From: Nitrospirota bacterium
GTDB taxonomy: Bacteria > Nitrospirota > Thermodesulfovibrionia > Thermodesulfovibrionales > JdFR-85
Assembly (NCBI GenBank): GCA_035873375.1
Contig: JAYWMQ010000024.1
Span: forward strand, 1 to 36,931
DNA length: 36,931 nt
Direction: 5' to 3'
Positions within the stretch are counted from its first letter, which is position 1, and each line of letters begins with the position of its first letter. The position numbers were made by a program, and so were the translations under genes. This document shows, one piece after another, positions 3-36,931 of this stretch. The notes under the pieces were generated by a model that did no database searches, was not told where the DNA came from, and saw nothing but the letters and a program-made list of their open reading frames with translations.

Positions 3-143
3 CCCCCCCTGAAAAGGCCCTTTTTCAGGTCTCTTCACAGTAAGGTAGTCGAGGTTCCGGAGCTTGAGTTTGCAAGGCCCGGCATCCATGCATTTGAGGC
101 CGTAATAGACCTTAACAAAATTTTTCGTGGAGAAGATAAATGA
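3..143 (+). CDS. C-terminal end of a protein cut by the window edge, possibly a corrinoid/metal-binding ABC substrate-binding protein
   Basis: An open frame enters from the left edge and stops at TGA 141-143, overlapping the cbiL start as ATGA, which is typical of translational coupling in an operon. About 46 residues are visible. They contain the string ARPGIHAFEAVIDLNKIF, which resembles the RPG-x-R-x-hydrophobic end of BtuF-type periplasmic binding proteins. The overlap with cbiL makes a cobalamin-related role likely. The family call rests on this short tail only, so it is an inference. Confidence 0.45.
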   Translation, partial: PPLKRPFFRSLHSKVVEVPELEFARPGIHAFEAVIDLNKIFRGEDK

Positions 144-844
144 GTAATACCGTTTATTCGATCGGGCTTGGCCCGGGAAACCCCGAACTCCTGACGGTCA
201 GGGCAAGAAGAATGCTTGAGGAGTCGGATATCGTAGTAGTGCCCCAGTCCGACGAGACCGGAAGGAGCGTGGCAAGAGATATTGTTCTCCATTACATAGA
301 CCCCTCAAGGATTCTGATGTATTACTTCCCGATGAACAATGACAGGGAGGACCTGGAGAGAAGATACACTGAACTGGCCCGGAAGATAAAGCAACTGACA
401 GTGGAGGGTAAGAGGGTATCATATGTGACAATGGGGGATCCGACCATATTCAGCACATCAAATTATATTACCGAAAAACTGAAGGCAGTGGGAGTGGAGG
501 TAAAGCATGTCCCTGGCATAAGCTCCATAAACGCTGCCTCAACAATGCTCGGCCTTCCCCTGTGCGTCAAGGGAGAACACTTTGGTGTCTATGAGATGCC
601 GGGGGAGGTTGAAGAGGCAGTGAGGCTTATCAGGAGGCATCCGACCACGGTCTTTATGAAGGTAAACAGGAAACTGCCTGTGCTTGTTGAGGCTGTCAGG
701 ACAGCGGTGCCGGAGAGGGCTTATCTTGCCCGCAGGATAGGTCTTGACGAGGAGGTTTTTTATGATATGCTCAACTGTTCACCTCCGCCTGAGGCTGCGT
801 ATCTGTCGGTTGCAGTGATAAGGAGGGGGCAGTCAGCGGGATAG
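140..844 (+). CDS. cbiL: Cobalt-factor II / precorrin-2 C20-methyltransferase
   Basis: CbiL transfers a methyl group from S-adenosylmethionine to C20 of the corrin precursor, an early step of cytoplasmic cobalamin synthesis. The 234-residue product has the tetrapyrrole-methylase fold. It shows the N-terminal glycine-rich loop GLGPGNPELLT (about residues 9-19), the MGDPTIFST loop (about 98-106) and VPGISSINA (about 124-132), all of which line the SAM and substrate sites in this family. Length is normal for CbiL/CobI. The start ATG 140 overlaps the upstream stop. Among tetrapyrrole methylases the FSTSNYI context and PGISS-NAA segment favour CbiL; the identity is also supported by the neighbouring cbiD-H genes. 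The next gene begins 250 bases later, after a structured repeat. Confidence 0.92.
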   Translation: MSNTVYSIGLGPGNPELLTVRARRMLEESDIVVVPQSDETGRSVARDIVLHYIDPSRILMYYFPMNNDREDLERRYTELARKIKQLTVEGKRVSYVTMGDPTIFSTSNYITEKLKAVGVEVKHVPGISSINAASTMLGLPLCVKGEHFGVYEMPGEVEEAVRLIRRHPTTVFMKVNRKLPVLVEAVRTAVPERAYLARRIGLDEEVFYDMLNCSPPPEAAYLSVAVIRRGQSAG

Positions 845-879
845 GAAGGGTTTTGGAGTAGAGATGTGAACGGTTGTTG

Positions 880-1011
880 GAAGCGCTATGATAGACTCTT
901 CACTCATTCTCGATGGACATCGTGTCCATCTCCGAGGAAATTATCACGACTCACCATCCGGGTGAGACAAAAGTGATAATTAAAACCGTTCAGAGTCAAT
1001 CATAGCGCTTC
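880..1011 (-). repeat. Three-way-junction palindromic repeat, copy 1 (inverted orientation)
   Basis: Outer arms GAAGCGCTATGAT (880-892) and its complement (999-1011) enclose two inner hairpins. Read on the - strand, the order is the junction GAACGGTTTTAA, hairpin AATTATCAC...GTGATAATT with an inner CTCACC/GGTGAG stem, then CCTCGGAG, a GATGGACA/TGTCCATC hairpin and CGAGAATGAGTGAA. The same order and junction words occur in the copies at 7642-7783 and 36826-36931. The element lies 36 bases after cbiL and 84 bases before cbiD. No open frame or transposase is inside it. Confidence 0.9.
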
Positions 1012-1095
1012 TTTCCAATGATTGAGGCTTTTTATCGCTATATCCGGGGTTATGTAAGTGTTACAGTATTTTATTGCCCAAGTTAAGAAGATGAT

Positions 1096-1287
1096 ATGAG
1101 AAAGGGGTTTACAACTGGTGCTGCTGCCACCGCAGCAGCAAAGGCAGCAGCAATACTGCTGGCCGGAGGTCAGGGCTTGGAAGGCAGGAGCCGGAGACTT
1201 ACGGGATTTGTAGAGATTCAACTCCCTGACGGTAAAAAGGTCTGCCTTAAAATTCTTAACTCTGAACTCTTGACTCTGAACTCTTGA
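1096..1287 (+). CDS. cbiD: CbiD, N-terminal part (split gene)
   Basis: CbiD methylates C1 of cobalt-precorrin-5B using SAM in the anaerobic B12 pathway. This 63-residue piece begins MRKGFTTGAAATAAAKAAA, the CbiD N-terminal signature (normally FTTG followed by small residues), and continues to LPDGKKVCL, the expected first beta-hairpin. It then runs into a 7-bp tandem repeat and stops at TGA 1285-1287. The rest of the protein is encoded in another frame from 1284. The stop overlaps a possible TTG restart (TTGA), so coupled translation of the second half could occur, but no such product can be shown from sequence. The alanine-rich start is also repetitive at DNA level (GCA/GCAGCA runs). Confidence 0.85.
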   Translation: MRKGFTTGAAATAAAKAAAILLAGGQGLEGRSRRLTGFVEIQLPDGKKVCLKILNSELLTLNS

Positions 1288-1304
1288 CTCTGAACTCTGA
1301 ACTC
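1256..1304 (+). repeat. Seven tandem 7-bp units (TKRACTC) inside cbiD
   Basis: The units are TTAACTC, TGAACTC, TTGACTC, TGAACTC, TTGACTC, TGAACTC and TGAACTC, without gaps. Because 7 is not a multiple of 3, a change in unit number shifts the cbiD frame. The present seven-unit allele separates the two halves of the gene. Removing two units (for example 1270-1283) joins them in one open frame with no stop, which I checked codon by codon. Confidence 0.95.
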
Positions 1305-2177
1305 ATAGCCCGGGCATCGGTTATCAAGGATGCAGGGGACGACCCTGATGTTACAAACGGGATGGAGATACGTGCAGAGGTAAAAAGCCTTGAACATACA
1401 GGGGATATAGTGATAAAAGGTGGTGAGGGTGTTGGTGTGGTAACAAAACCAGGCTTGCAGATCCCGGTGGGTGAGGCGGCAATTAACCCTGTGCCGAGAG
1501 TTATGATAACCCGGGCGGTGAGAGACGTGTTGCCAAAGGGCGGGATAGCGGTTGAGATATCAGTGCCCGGGGGCAGGGAGGTTGCAGGGAAGACCTTTAA
1601 TCAGAGGCTGGGCATTGTGGGTGGAATATCTATAATCGGCACAACAGGCATAGTCGAGCCCATGAGTCTTGAGGCACTGAAGGCAACCATAAGGTGTGAG
1701 ATAGACGTGGCGCGGGAGGAGATCAGAAGCGCTCCTTCCGCCCTTTTTCTTGCACCCGGCAAGATCGGAGAAAATGCCTTAAAAAGTCTTTTTGGTGATA
1801 TAAGGGTTGTCCAGATGAGTAATTTTGTGGGGTTTGCACTTGAGTATGCCGGGGAAAAGGGTATAGATGATATTGTCATTGGCGGTCATCCTGGAAAGCT
1901 TGCCAAGATAATGATGGGCTATCTTGACACCCATTCAGGAAACTCTCCGCAGGCCACCGGGTTTGTAGCTGAATTCCTGGGTCTAAACAGTGAGTTTAAT
2001 ACTGTTGAGGAGATTATTCAATCAGTTAAAAAGGTTTCGGGTTCAGGGCAGACCTTTTTCGACCTTGCCGCAGGTATTGCAGAGGCGGTAAGGGAGAGGT
2101 TTGGGTTCAGGACGGTCGAGGTATGTCTCTTTGATATGAAGAAAGAGCTGACAGGTAGGGGGAAATGCACAGGATAA
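1284..2177 (+). CDS. cbiD: CbiD, main C-terminal part (cobalt-precorrin-5B C1-methyltransferase)
   Basis: This frame holds most of CbiD. Recognisable blocks are ARASVIKDAGDDPDVTNG near its start, GEAAINPVPRVMI, GGISIIGTTGIVEPMS and HPGKLAKIMMGYLDTHS, all in the family's order. Together with the 1096-1287 piece the protein would be about 360 residues, close to a normal CbiD. A TTG at 1284 is the only obvious restart at the junction and overlaps the stop of the first piece; there is no clear ribosome-binding site, so coupling or a frame-restoring repeat change would be needed. It overlaps the cbiE start at 2165. Apart from the repeat, nothing in this reading frame looks decayed, which argues against a long-dead gene. 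Confidence 0.88.
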   Translation: MTLNSELIARASVIKDAGDDPDVTNGMEIRAEVKSLEHTGDIVIKGGEGVGVVTKPGLQIPVGEAAINPVPRVMITRAVRDVLPKGGIAVEISVPGGREVAGKTFNQRLGIVGGISIIGTTGIVEPMSLEALKATIRCEIDVAREEIRSAPSALFLAPGKIGENALKSLFGDIRVVQMSNFVGFALEYAGEKGIDDIVIGGHPGKLAKIMMGYLDTHSGNSPQATGFVAEFLGLNSEFNTVEEIIQSVKKVSGSGQTFFDLAAGIAEAVRERFGFRTVEVCLFDMKKELTGRGKCTG

Positions 2178-2806
2178 CGGTAATAAGCGCAGGGCCGGGA
2201 GGCAGGGGATACATTACAGCCATTGCATTGCAGAAGGCAGGGCAATGCGATGTAATCATAGGCACAGAGCAGCAGCTCGCTACAGCAGGGCATACCCCCG
2301 GGCAGATCGTTTACAGGGAAAGCTCCATAGAGGGGATAATGAGACTGATAGAGCGGCACAGGGGCCGGCGTGTCGGGGTGCTCGTTACCGGGGATGCAGG
2401 GATTTACAGCCTTGCGCAGAAGATAATCGACAGATTCGGCAAAGAGGCAGTTGAGAAGATAATCCCCGGGGTATCAAGTATTCAGGTGGCCTTTGCAAGG
2501 GTCAAAGAGCCCTGGCTCAATGTGCGGGTCTTTTCATTTCATGGAAGACCGCTTGAAGGGCTTGAGGATATTTTAAGCTGCGACAGGGTGGCGGTTCTGT
2601 GTGACAGGGGGCATAATGCAAAGGCGGTGCTCTCTGCCCTGACAGGGCTGGGTCTCTTTGATGAAGCACGGAACATCTATGTATGCCGGGATCTGACGAT
2701 GGAGGACGAACAGGTGTTGGAGGTCCGAAACCTTGAGGATATAGAGGGCATTGGGACAGGGAGAAGGGAGATTGTTCTGTTGATTAAAACCATTAATGCT
2801 GATTAA
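2165..2806 (+). CDS. cbiE: Cobalt-precorrin-7 (C5)-methyltransferase
   Basis: CbiE methylates C5 of the corrin ring late in the pathway. The 213-residue product has the tetrapyrrole-methylase glycine loop SAGPGGRGYITA (about residues 8-19), the VLVTGDAGIYSL loop and IPGVSSIQVAFARVKEPW, the last being typical of CbiE/CobL N-domains. It is a stand-alone CbiE: the CbiT decarboxylase/C15-methyltransferase, often fused or adjacent, is not in this window. The ATG at 2165 follows a purine-rich GGTAGGGGGAA ribosome site and overlaps the end of cbiD by 13 bases. Confidence 0.9.
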   Translation: MHRITVISAGPGGRGYITAIALQKAGQCDVIIGTEQQLATAGHTPGQIVYRESSIEGIMRLIERHRGRRVGVLVTGDAGIYSLAQKIIDRFGKEAVEKIIPGVSSIQVAFARVKEPWLNVRVFSFHGRPLEGLEDILSCDRVAVLCDRGHNAKAVLSALTGLGLFDEARNIYVCRDLTMEDEQVLEVRNLEDIEGIGTGRREIVLLIKTINAD

Positions 2807-2920
2807 AACCACTGAGACACTGAGACACGGAGAAGAATAAAAATTTTTCACTTGCCATTTATCATTTTACAGGGTATTAAAATCCATTAAATATTCTGTG
2901 TCTCCGTGTCTCTGTGGTTT
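2806..2920. repeat. Inverted repeat with ACTGAGACAC-type arms
   Basis: Left arm 2806-2834 (begins AAACCACTGAGACACTGAG) and right arm 2894-2920 are imperfect reverse complements of 27-29 bases, separated by 59 AT-rich bases. The left arm begins at the cbiE stop codon and the element fills the cbiE-cbiG gap. The arms are made of repeated GAGACAC words. No coding content is seen in it. Confidence 0.85.
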
Positions 2921-2939
2921 CAACCAGGATATTTAAATC

Positions 2940-4502
2940 ATGAAGACAGCCGCAATAGCAATAACTGAAAAAGGTGCTGAGACGGCCCTTAAAATTGCCA
3001 CAGCTACAGGGGCGGACCTGCACCTGTGGCAGGAATGTCTGAACGGGAAGGCGTTTGATGAGGTTGGAGACAAGGCCGTCACCTTTGAGAGCCTGTCAGC
3101 TCATGTAAGCAGGATATTTCATGAATACGAGGGGTTGATCTTTGTCATGTCTCTCGGCATAGTAAGCAGGGTTATAGCCCCAATGATAAAGAGCAAATAT
3201 ACAGACCCGGCCGTAGTGTGCCATGACGAGGTCGGCAGATTTGTGATAAGCATTCTCTCAGGTCATGAGGGTGGTGCAAACGGGCTTGCCTGCAGTGTGA
3301 GTTCAGTTACAGGGGCAGAGCCGGTTGTCACCACGGCAACAGAGGCAAACAGGCTATATACCTGCGGGGTTGGTTGCAGGAGGGGTGTCCGGGCAGAAGA
3401 GATAATAAAAGCCATTAAAGAGGCCTGCAAAATGGCCGGCATCTCAGTGGATGAAATAAGGTGTCTTGCCTCGGCATGGGTCAAGAGTGACGAGGCGGGG
3501 CTACTTGAGGCTGCCGGGAAACTCGGGCTCTATCTCAGGTTTATACCCGAGTGGATGATTAAGGAGTATTACGAAAAAGACCCGCAGGCTGAGAGGTCGG
3601 ATTTTGTGCATGAAAGTATTGGGGTCTACGGTGTTTCAGAGCCATGTGCCATGGTATCGGGCAGGAACACGGTTTCTGTTTTGGGGAAGACAAGTTTTGG
3701 AGGAGTAACCGTTGCGATAGCAAGGGAGCGGCTTTTCAGGGATTTAATCAATATGGAAGTTAAAAAGGCAGGTGAGCTGGAAGGCAGGATTCTGCTCCTT
3801 GGCGGTACCACTGAGGCAACTGAGGTGGCCAGGGATCTGGCGAAAGAGGGTAAGGAGTTCTTTATAACCACTGCCACGGAATACGGCCGTGACCTCTTTG
3901 CAGAGAAGTTCGGCAGCAGGGTGATAAGGGAGAGGTTCAGTGAGGAGACCCTCCGTAAATTCATAGGGGAAAAGGGGATAGTGACGGTGATTGACTGTAC
4001 TCATCCCTATGCAGGGCTCATTACCGGATTGGCAAAGAGGGTGTGTGAGGCAGAGGGGATAAAATACATATCGGGAATAAGGGATTTGGAACAGACGGTA
4101 ACGATTGATTATGAAAAGATAAAGACAGTTGCTTCTGTTGAAGACGGAGCAAAAGAGGTTTTGGCGCTCGGGATCAAAAGGCCGCTTTTTACCACAGGAA
4201 GTAAAGACCTCTGTTTTACTAATATACTGAAGGGCAGGGATCTCTTTGTCCGGGTATTGCCGTATGAGGATTCTGTCAGGGCCTGTCTTGACGCCGGGGT
4301 GAGGAGGCAGCATATCATTGCCATACAGGGCCCCTTTTCCGCTGAATTAAATATTGCACTTATAAGGCAGTACGGTATAGACTGTCTGGTGACCAAGAGA
4401 ACCGGCCGTGCGGGTGGTTTTTATGAGAAGATCGAGGCGGCAAGGGAGTGCGGAATATGGGTTGTGGTGGTTGAAAACAGCAAAATGACGGAGATGAGAT
4501 AA
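2940..4502 (+). CDS. cbiGJ: Fused CbiG (cobalt-precorrin-5A hydrolase) and CbiJ (cobalt-precorrin-6A reductase)
   Basis: Residues 1 to about 275 match CbiG, which opens the delta-lactone ring of cobalt-precorrin-5A and releases acetaldehyde. Visible blocks are LIFVMSLGIVSRVIAP, SILSGHEGGANGLA and GVGCRRG, plus the C-terminal GKTSFGGVTVAIAR region. From residue 282 (RILLLGGTTEATEVARDL) the protein matches CbiJ/CobK, the NAD(P)H-dependent reductase, with TVIDCTHPYA, LFTTGSKDL and VTKRTGRAGGFYEKI. At 520 residues the length is the sum of the two enzymes. The stop TAA shares a base with the ATG of cbiF (TAATG). The two activities act on successive intermediates on either side of CbiD and CbiF methylations, so fusion may fix their ratio. 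The fusion itself is seen directly; the effect is inference. Confidence 0.92.
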   Translation: MKTAAIAITEKGAETALKIATATGADLHLWQECLNGKAFDEVGDKAVTFESLSAHVSRIFHEYEGLIFVMSLGIVSRVIAPMIKSKYTDPAVVCHDEVGRFVISILSGHEGGANGLACSVSSVTGAEPVVTTATEANRLYTCGVGCRRGVRAEEIIKAIKEACKMAGISVDEIRCLASAWVKSDEAGLLEAAGKLGLYLRFIPEWMIKEYYEKDPQAERSDFVHESIGVYGVSEPCAMVSGRNTVSVLGKTSFGGVTVAIARERLFRDLINMEVKKAGELEGRILLLGGTTEATEVARDLAKEGKEFFITTATEYGRDLFAEKFGSRVIRERFSEETLRKFIGEKGIVTVIDCTHPYAGLITGLAKRVCEAEGIKYISGIRDLEQTVTIDYEKIKTVASVEDGAKEVLALGIKRPLFTTGSKDLCFTNILKGRDLFVRVLPYEDSVRACLDAGVRRQHIIAIQGPFSAELNIALIRQYGIDCLVTKRTGRAGGFYEKIEAARECGIWVVVVENSKMTEMR

Positions 4503-5257
4503 TGTCCAAGGTATATTTTGTAGGTGCAGGTCCCGGTGACCCTGAACTCATGACACTAAAGGGCAGGAGGCTTCTGGAGGAGGCTCAACTGGTCATATTC
4601 GCCGGAAGCCTTGTGAATCACGAGATCGTCAGGGGTTTAAGTGCCGAGGTACATGATTCCTCAGGCATGTCCCTTGATGAGATAATAGACCGTATAAACC
4701 GGGCTGTCAAGGAAGGCAGATCAGTAGTCAGGCTGCACACGGGTGATCCCGCTTTCTACAGTGCCATATCAGAGCAGATAGAGAGGCTGCGGGCGCTGGA
4801 CATAGAGTATGAGGTTGTCCCCGGCGTATCTTCCGCCAGCGCAGGGGCTGCTGTTCTTGGACAGGAGCTGACAATACCCGAGGTGAGCCAGACCGTTATC
4901 TTTACGCGGCTTGAGGGGAGGACCCCCGTGCCTGAGACAGAGAGGCTGAGGGACCTTGCTGCACACAGGACAACAATGGTGATATTTTTGAGTGTCTCCA
5001 TGATAGAGCGGGTAAGGGAGGAGCTGCTGCACGGCTATTCCGGGGATACGCCGGTTGCAGTAGTTGAAAAGGCGTCCTGGCCTGAAGAGAGGGTTTTTCA
5101 TGGCACTCTCGGTGAGATTGTTAAGATAGTTAATGATGCGGGCATTAAAAAAACGGCCCTGATCTTTGTCGGAGATGCCCTCAGGGCATCCAGGAATACC
5201 ACAGGCAGGGAATCAAGGTTGTATAATAAGGACTTCAGTCATGAATACAGGAAATAA
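4502..5257 (+). CDS. cbiF: Cobalt-precorrin-4 C11-methyltransferase
   Basis: CbiF methylates C11 of cobalt-precorrin-4 with SAM. The 251-residue protein starts MSKVYFVGAGPGDPELMTLKGRRLL, the hallmark of CbiF/CobM, followed by FAGSLVN, the LHTGDPAFYSA loop (about residues 79-89) and VPGVSSASAGAAVLGQELTIPEVSQTVI. Length is usual. The gene is coupled to cbiGJ by a one-base overlap and itself overlaps the cbiH start by 17 bases. The final 20 or so residues are polar and not conserved. Confidence 0.94.
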   Translation: MSKVYFVGAGPGDPELMTLKGRRLLEEAQLVIFAGSLVNHEIVRGLSAEVHDSSGMSLDEIIDRINRAVKEGRSVVRLHTGDPAFYSAISEQIERLRALDIEYEVVPGVSSASAGAAVLGQELTIPEVSQTVIFTRLEGRTPVPETERLRDLAAHRTTMVIFLSVSMIERVREELLHGYSGDTPVAVVEKASWPEERVFHGTLGEIVKIVNDAGIKKTALIFVGDALRASRNTTGRESRLYNKDFSHEYRK

Positions 5258-6050
5258 AGGCAGGCTTTCTGTTGTGGGGATAGGCCCCGGAGACCCGGAT
5301 CACATCACTCCCGCCGCACTCAGGGCGATCAGGGACTCTGAAGTGATCGTGGGATATACAACCTATATCGACCTGATAAGGGGGTTGATCAAAGATAAGG
5401 AGATTATTACTGCGGGCATGACCCGGGAGGTTCAGAGGTGCAGGAAGGCCATAGAGGCCGCCTCTCAAGGCAGGACAGTTGCCGTGATATGCAGTGGTGA
5501 CCCCGGGATTTACGCCATGGCCGGGCTGGTGTTTGAGTTGATTGAAAAAGGGCTGCAGGTTGAAGGCGGCAGTTCAGATCAGGAGTTGGCCCCGGAAACC
5601 GGTACTGCGGAATTTGATGTTGAAGTCATCCCCGGAATACCTGCGCTGTCGTCATGTGCCTCAAGACTCGGAGCCCCGCTGATGCATGATTTTGCCTCAA
5701 TAAGCCTGTCGGACAGGCTTACTCCCTGGGATAAGATCGAGAGCAGACTCCATGCCGCAGCAGGGGCGGACTTTGTCATTGTGATCTATAACCCAAAGAG
5801 CAGGGGCAGAAAGGACCACCTTGAGAGGGCAATCGGAATTATTGCCAGGCACAGAAATAGTGATACACCTGTAGGGATTGTAAAGGCTGCCATGAGGGAA
5901 GAGGAGAAGATAATTATCACCACCCTCGGCAGTGTGCCATTTGAGGAGGTTGACATGCAGAGCACGGTTATTATTGGAAACAACAGGACCTTTATCCGGG
6001 ATGGCCGTATTGTGACCCCGAGAGGGTATGGGGATAAGTATGAGTTGTGA
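5241..6050 (+). CDS. cbiH: Cobalt-factor III / precorrin-3B C17-methyltransferase (ring-contracting)
   Basis: CbiH methylates C17 and contracts the tetrapyrrole to the corrin ring. The 269-residue product shows LSVVGIGPGDPDHITPAAL, VGYTTYIDLI, VICSGDPGIYAMAGLV and VIPGIPALSSCASRLGAPLMHDFASISLSD, then VIYNPKSRGR; all are in CbiH/CobJ order. I chose the ATG at 5241 because the homologous region starts right after it; an upstream in-frame ATG at 5166 would only add residues lying deep within cbiF. A segment of roughly 17 polar residues (about 108-124, GGSSDQELAPETGTAEF) interrupts the usual link before the VIPGIPA motif and looks like a lineage-specific loop. Confidence 0.92.
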   Translation: MNTGNKGRLSVVGIGPGDPDHITPAALRAIRDSEVIVGYTTYIDLIRGLIKDKEIITAGMTREVQRCRKAIEAASQGRTVAVICSGDPGIYAMAGLVFELIEKGLQVEGGSSDQELAPETGTAEFDVEVIPGIPALSSCASRLGAPLMHDFASISLSDRLTPWDKIESRLHAAAGADFVIVIYNPKSRGRKDHLERAIGIIARHRNSDTPVGIVKAAMREEEKIIITTLGSVPFEEVDMQSTVIIGNNRTFIRDGRIVTPRGYGDKYEL

Positions 6051-7641: not shown

Positions 7642-7783
7642 AAGGAGTGACATGATTAACCCTGAACGGTTTTAAGTATCACAAAGGCTTCACATAGATG
7701 GTGAAGCCTTTGTGATACTTACCTCGGAGTCCCGACTGGAAGTCGGGACGAGAATGAGTGAAGGGTTAATCATGTCACTCCTT
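7642..7783 (+). repeat. Three-way-junction palindromic repeat, copy 2
   Basis: This is the best-formed copy. A perfect 22-base outer stem (7642-7663 with 7762-7783) encloses a perfect 21-bp hairpin (7673-7693 with 7701-7721, loop ATAGATG) and a second hairpin (7729-7737 with 7741-7749) flanked by CTCGGAG and CGAGAATGAGTGAA. The junction word GAACGGTTTTAA is shared with copy 1. It sits 34 bases after the ThiC-like gene and 34 bases before the end of the convergent radical-SAM gene, so it could shape the 3' ends of both transcripts. Confidence 0.93.
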
Positions 7784-36730: not shown

Positions 36731-36825
36731 ACATAAAGTATAAACATTTTTATCATCAACTTTTCAATCTTTCCCAGGATCGCCGACAGAAAACCTGTCA
36801 ACTTTTGACAATAGAGGCGGATACC

Positions 36826-36931
36826 GAGTTTGAACAGATTTAATTATCACATATGGCTCACCTGGATGGTGAGCCGTGATAATTCCCTCGGAGCCCCGGC
36901 TGGATGCCGGGACGAGAATGAGTGAAAACTC
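36826..36931 (+). repeat. Three-way-junction palindromic repeat, copy 3 (cut by window edge)
   Basis: GAGTTT (36826-36831) pairs with AAACTC (36926-36931), and the window ends within the outer stem. Inside are the hairpin AATTATCAC, ATAT, GGCTCACC (36842-36862) with its complement at 36868-36884, and the hairpin CCCGGC/GCCGGG (36895-36911). The words CCTCGGAG and CGAGAATGAGTGAA are shared with the other copies. It lies 95 bases upstream of the VanZ-like gene. Confidence 0.88.

Follow-up and report, generated by a model that had tools for sequence, protein, structure and literature searches.

Layout of the repeat in the window

The window, i.e., the whole stretch of 36,931 nucleotides analysed here, holds cbiL, cbiD and cbiH (cobalamin biosynthesis) together with thiC in one array at 140–6050. 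Three copies of a gene-free interspersed repeat lie in it. A sequence-only reading of this DNA had described them as sharing one architecture, and they are present where it placed them, the third being truncated at 36931; the junction words and stem changes that it quoted were exact when the sequence was read again.

Copy 1, with an outer stem of type A, covers 879–1011 on the minus strand (covariance-model match C24:883-1008:-, 135 bits) and lies inside the array, between cbiL and cbiD and antisense to both. Along its own strand, the junction word TGAACGGTTTT (982–992) is followed by hairpin 1, AATTATCAC...CTCACC-CGGAT-GGTGAG...GTGATAATT (938–981), the word CCTCGGAG (930–937), hairpin 2, ATGGACA-CGA-TGTCCAT (913–929), and the word CGAGAATGAGTGAA (899–912). 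The first two words were read from the sequence and the last from a genome word count, and both hairpins were assigned from sequence and folding. Beyond the outer stem, the 5' end region CCCCGGATATAGCGATAAAAAGCCTCAATCATTG (1012–1045, minus strand) is common to type A copies. The type A outer stem can be read as a leader peptide (ATG ATT GAC TCT GAA CGG TTT TAA); this frame is unconserved in the other types and was judged to be chance.

Copy 2, of type C, is found at 7642–7783 on the plus strand (C24:7647-7778:+, 128 bits), between thiC (+) and a radical SAM gene (-). Its outer stem, made of the 5' arm AAGGAGTGACATGATTAACCC (7642–7662) and a 3' arm at 7763–7783, encloses TGAACGGTTTT (7663–7673), hairpin 1 with a 20-bp stem (7674–7720), CCTCGGAG (7722–7729), hairpin 2, TCCCGACTGGAAGTCGGGA (7730–7748), and CGAGAATGAGTGAA (7749–7762, genome word count), all on the plus strand and with the stems assigned from sequence and folding. 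Copy 3, of type B, is cut by the contig end (~36815–36931, plus strand, covariance-model match L052). The 5' end region CCCAGGATCGCCGACAGAAAACCTGTCAA in front of it (36775–36803, plus strand) is common to type B copies and is also part of an inserted segment in genome G397 (L305). Contig C8 of the same genome ends with the copy 3 element in full (L009/L034), so the assembly breaks at the repeat.

Compared with dinucleotide shuffles, the folding energies of copies 1, 2 and 3 correspond to z = -8.5, -14.7 and -6.1. The outer stem exists as described in the sequence-only reading, but it is longer than the core suggests and continues into the end regions in the genus (e.g. CCCGGATTCAGCGATAAA).

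A three-way junction with constant joints and variable stems

The constant part of the repeat is a three-way junction, consisting of the outer stem, UGA-R-CGG-N-UU, hairpin 1, CCUCGGAG, hairpin 2, CGAGAAUGAG-Y-GAA and the outer stem again. The core spans ~130 bp, and with end regions, where these are present, the element reaches ~190–240 bp. In an alignment of 16 full copies from the host genome all stems are variable and the joints are constant. Of the cells, 96.5% are paired, while controls with a slid structure are only 27–46% paired. Changes on both sides occur in 30 of the 45 pairs, a number reached by 0 of 500 shuffles, and 126 cells are changed on both sides, few on one. For 91 copies from several phyla, 95.4% are paired and the covariation score is 0.771, compared with 0.184 after shuffling. 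The fold is thus kept by paired change across several phyla. A pair inside the joint, TGA-R-C...G-Y-GAA, also covaries, from A-U to G-C, and as read from the alignment the surrounding UGARC / GYGAA permits a tandem G-A pair.

Among 82 copies found with the covariance model, the columns GG, UU, C-CUCG-GAG and CGAG-AAUGA are nearly all 96–100% constant, figures that are upper estimates because the model was trained partly on pattern-selected sequences. GGA is usual in both hairpin loops of this set. Similarly, the cross-phylum set was gathered by an exact pattern, and its invariance at the pattern words is therefore partly by construction.

The isolated pairs in the outer stem reveal which strand folds. 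On the written strand, G-U is found 101 times and A-C 23 times, so one defined strand folds. A stricter recount likewise favours G-U in every clade for which there are data, and for copies antisense to genes it gives 28:5 (p = 7e-5). The structured strand, and the only one to tolerate G-U, is the one that reads TGAACGG...CCTCGGAG...GAATGAG, regardless of the neighbouring genes. This asymmetry is compatible with both RNA and single-stranded DNA (ssDNA) and does not separate them. Since the stems keep changing while the single-stranded joints hardly do, one strand probably must take the same shape. The earlier proposal that the fold itself matters is hence supported, both by a covariation exceeding all controls and by the strand asymmetry.

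Hairpins are exchanged as cassettes

Comparison of same-site copies in sister species reveals that the hairpins behave as cassettes, which reassort between copies. Hairpin 1 is replaced as a unit at two such sites (L049/L276 and L046/L304), and both hairpins are replaced between copy 1 of the window and L267; in each case the outer stem, the joints and the flanks are kept. Almost every exchanged piece is complementary to itself, and the joints are unchanged. Among 57 copies of the genus, 31 combinations of outer stem, hairpin 1 and hairpin 2 are found, with 4, 11 and 8 four-combination sets.

Recombination thus accounts for part of the covariation, which is not all point-by-point compensation, and this qualifies two points of the sequence-only reading. 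Its statement that the stems differ by paired changes holds in that pairing is kept, but much of the difference is whole-hairpin exchange instead of stepwise compensation; and the covariation test that it had suggested exceeds all controls, yet is partly a recombination signal.

Template switching and gene conversion are known behaviours of bacterial palindromes. The repeat could then be an ordinary MITE or extragenic palindrome in which inverted repeats correct each other by template switching, copies are exchanged by gene conversion and the fold is unselected, and both the swapping of whole hairpins, instead of stepwise changes, and the large excess of double over single changes in pairs would fit this. 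However, it leaves unexplained why the unpaired junction words are constant across phyla that share no other sequence, as well as the G-U over A-C asymmetry in the outer stem and the orientation bias discussed below. We disfavour this explanation and regard it as quite improbable.

In three loci (L001, L014 and L026, ~1440–1500, plus strand), a small hairpin TCCCGAAGTA[CT]TTCGGGAT replaces part of hairpin 1. It adjoins CGGAG and gives the impression of a third cassette inserted into the loop.

Distribution within and beyond the phylum

The sequence-only reading had suggested a search for further copies, and many were found in the host genome and in related genomes, also beyond the phylum. The word CGAGAATGAGTGAA has 31 exact copies in the host genome (Nitrospirota, 2.67 Mb), where the covariance model R1 finds 34 elements. 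Four sister species have 14, 21, 40 and 44 copies, a fifth has 5, and a genome of the same family has 35. Within the Nitrospirota phylum the covariance model detects the element in 77 of 396 genomes; the distribution is patchy, and many genomes of the same order are without a match.

The exact-pattern matches listed include Desulfobacterota, Latescibacterota, Gemmatimonadota, Auribacterota and Parcubacteria, and the element is common to at least six phyla. Per genome, there are at least 66 copies in one of the Desulfobacterales (G416), at least 56 in a member of the Gemmatimonadota (G408), at least 57 in one of the Latescibacterota (G409) and 2–5 in Parcubacteria. Among cultured carriers, Desulfurivibrio sp. 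AMeS2 has 26. Some of the cross-phylum matches are MAG contigs, for which misbinning is possible; that several copies per genome carry lineage-typical hairpins argues against it. Contigs terminate inside or beside the element in the window's own genome (window 36815–36931 and the end of C8) and in its relatives (G270 C20/C57, G308 C13/C96), and many do so in G416; the copy numbers from MAGs are thus lower bounds.

A 28-kb contig of a same-family genome (G288:C63; L297, L298) holds a local cluster: at least nine copies lie on it, some in each orientation, and three fall within 550 bp (L298 2974–3515).

Movement, ends and candidate mobilisers

Between species, copies have inserted or been lost. 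G397 carries a complete type B element, end region included, where the own genome has an empty site (L048/L305), and elements of G308 C13 are absent from the matching own-genome intervals. At the site after thiC in G354 the outer palindrome is kept and the two hairpins are missing (loop TGAGGTGAAG).

The ends of the element differ between lineages. In G416, the element around the core measures 195 bp and is bounded by 12-bp terminal inverted repeats, with the ends GTAACTATCCAG...CTGGATAGTTAC. Perfect 8-bp target duplications occur at seven of these elements, of which six are full-length and one has lost its core (control rate 0.0005), and one further element has a perfect 9-bp duplication; core-deleted derivatives of 63 bp occur. 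Terminal repeats with 8-bp duplications are the mark of a DDE-type transposase. The genus of the window has other ends, CCCGGATTCAGCGATAAA... and TAGTGTCCGGTAAA..., and one copy in G308, read by eye, has TGTAGCCC flanking both sides. At the edges of the outer stem, 110 copies of other taxa show no more target duplication than the control. The MITE-like combination of terminal repeats and a fixed-length duplication is thus found in G416, suggested by a single G308 copy and not seen at the outer-stem edges of the 110 copies. Unlike in MITEs, the ends vary by lineage around a constant core, many genomes show no target duplication and a search among IS66 genes gave no partner transposase. Since the core stays constant where the ends differ, conservation is higher in the core than in the ends.

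No autonomous partner with the same ends was found among Y1 genes, which are not near copies, or among IS66 genes, which are few or absent in the five genomes checked, and a search for the end pattern in the genus gave few sites. An autonomous version between close pairs of copies was rejected, as the intervening genes look ordinary by ORF layout.

An alternative route of spread is that the folded top strand serves as ssDNA substrate for an HUH enzyme (Y1, RAYT-like) or another ssDNA recombinase, similar to REPINs or attC sites. The strand-specific folding, the REP-like intergenic dispersal with hairpins and the occurrence of Y1 genes in 13 of the 17 family genomes would all agree with this, and the lack of outer-stem-edge duplications in the 110 copies is what IS200/IS605-type movement predicts. 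However, among 30 Y1 loci no Y1 gene lies within 1.5 kb of a copy, and in 1.37 Mb of element loci Y1 genes are rare, distant and never close. Nor does their presence follow that of the repeat: the well-complete carriers G288, G250 and G348 and the sister species G292 have no Y1 match, while G107 and G156 have Y1 and no matched copies. An association with RAYT/Y1 was consequently rejected, as it fails both by proximity and by presence. Furthermore, the G416 ends with their 8-bp duplications are not HUH-like, and lagging-strand targeting predicts sense rather than antisense placement. Integron attC sites have R and L boxes with a GTTRRRY core and are served by an integrase; by eye, the junction words hold no AAC...GTT box pair. 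We consider the ssDNA explanation the main rival to a folded RNA, possible but rather doubtful.

Genomic placement and a possible host function

Nearly every copy is intergenic. For copies between tandem genes, with orientation classes based on simple ORF calls, antisense placement of the folded strand outnumbers sense placement by 96 to 41 (p = 3e-6), and in the genus the ratio is 30:5. Because the targeting of lagging-strand ssDNA predicts the opposite sign (genes read with the fork), we take this bias to reflect selection that keeps the folded strand out of mRNA. For the comparison with the replication strand, the chromosome CP070788 (G400) is scaffolded with Ns and has no coherent GC skew. 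A promoter inside the element was not seen by eye.

The GGA in the loops is kept in many copies and in both hairpins, including the CsrA-like ACAGGAUGU, and copies lie near stop codons inside gene arrays. From this, the repeat could be a regulatory RNA kept for use by the host, e.g. as CsrA sites or as an element for mRNA stability or antitermination. Against a regulatory use, most copies are antisense to the genes beside them, the locations are polymorphic between sister species and GGA is missing from hairpin 2 in many Nitrospirota copies. CsrA as a reader of the GGA loops was rejected, as it is absent in 7 of 20 carriers: Gemmatimonadota G408, which keeps GGA loops in its at least 56 copies, four Parcubacteria, Auribacterota G411 and Nitrospirota G403. 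A regulatory RNA of the host is an unlikely explanation.

Comparison with known elements

The sequence-only reading knew no named element with this layout, and this agrees with our searches. Rfam (release 15) at gathering thresholds has no match to the element in the window or in 18 other loci, the only match being one tRNA elsewhere in one locus; relaxed thresholds gave weak unrelated matches only, among them a CsrB-type match of 17 bits against a cut-off of 71. Neither threshold gave a match to a ribozyme family. No description of the repeat was found in the literature searched, which took in only a small part of the subscription journals.

We class the feature with the REP/MITE-like non-autonomous repeats; what defines it is the strand-specific three-way junction with exchangeable arms. 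REP and REPIN sequences depend on REP-associated tyrosine transposases (RAYT; Nunvar 2010, PMC2817692; Bertels and Rainey 2011, PMC3116915), and the cognate RAYT (Y1) gene is present in the genome, usually with the repeats on its flanks. Like these, the repeat is short, gene-free, intergenic, palindromic and non-autonomous, has tens to hundreds of copies and is predicted to fold in ssDNA or mRNA. However, there is no RAYT gene near the copies, the layout is a three-way junction and not an inverted REP pair, and GTAG/GTGG is missing at the hairpin foot, the nearest being GGAG before hairpin 2. The constancy of the junction words over several phyla and the exchange of whole hairpins are also unlike REP/REPIN.

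BOX repeats are modular; here, the modules are exchanged hairpins around constant joints. The pneumococcal BOX, RUP and SPRITE are small interspersed repeats, rich in RNA secondary structure, that were judged parasitic (Croucher 2011, PMC3049150), and they are nearly confined to a few streptococci, in contrast to the wide reach of the present core. The ERIC or enterobacterial RU elements (PMC2759123) are likewise intergenic repeats, of ~127 bp, able to fold as RNA. The present repeat is not known to be related to them in sequence or junction layout, and its distribution differs. CsrB/RsmB share hairpins with GGA in the loop; however, CsrB is one sRNA that contains many GGA hairpins, and the carriers here include genomes without CsrA. 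Among REP/MITE-like repeats, the present one is unusual in its reach across phyla and in its cassette exchange.

A proposed mode of action

The copies are best read as a family of small repeats, mobile but non-autonomous, that are built around a strand-specific three-way-junction core. We suggest, with a probability of roughly 0.5, that this core acts as a folded RNA. A trans-acting transposase would read only the ends and move the elements, at least in the lineages with terminal repeats and 8-bp duplications. The junction core would most likely be the folded RNA of the structured strand, either self-acting or the target of a widely conserved protein. Copies that place this RNA strand in host mRNAs would be selected against, which would give the antisense bias. 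Short tracts of recombination or gene conversion, anchored in the constant junction words, could swap the hairpin cassettes, so that any hairpin would be tolerated if it pairs. In G416, and perhaps in the genus, the ends can explain transposition without the core, and conservation of the core there thus asks for another function; we infer that this favours RNA over an ssDNA transposition substrate.

It can further be speculated, only tentatively, that the junction is an uncharacterised RNA with a function of its own, which might cleave itself or offer a docking site to some universally conserved protein that handles RNA. Small mobile elements would then carry it across many phyla, with the active strand kept out of mRNAs and the arms exchangeable around a fixed catalytic or binding core.

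Constant joints combined with replaceable stems amount to a natural structure-function experiment, usually with a few to dozens of variants per genome and in at least six phyla. This provides a sequence set ready for testing as a new RNA (binding, cleavage) or as a new ssDNA recombination substrate, and the exchange of hairpin cassettes between repeats is displayed at orthologous sites. The repeats should also aid the annotation and assembly of genomes from groundwater Nitrospirota and others, in which contigs often break at them.

Other dispersed repeats

A second abundant palindrome of 106–109 bp is found in Desulfobacterota. It reads GTAACT[AG]TCCAGCAGCACC...GGTGCTGCTGGATAGTTAC and is a single hairpin without the three-way core (L407, L409, L412, L416, L423, L427, L429 and L435, at ~1300–1630 in each). 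There are 33 to more than 170 of its end sequences per genome, and some copies seem nested or doubled. IS66 was rejected as the mobiliser of the GTAAC-ended elements: in five genomes checked its genes are few or absent, being absent from a carrier with more than 170 such ends and too few elsewhere. Another dispersed repeat of the genus, with the words GAATAGTTGCCGGGTTATTA and GACGAATATGTCTCTCT, lies near the element but is separate from it; it is found in L361 (own C30, ~53.9–54.3 kb), in the flank of L028 and in L343 (G397 C47, ~2.0 kb).
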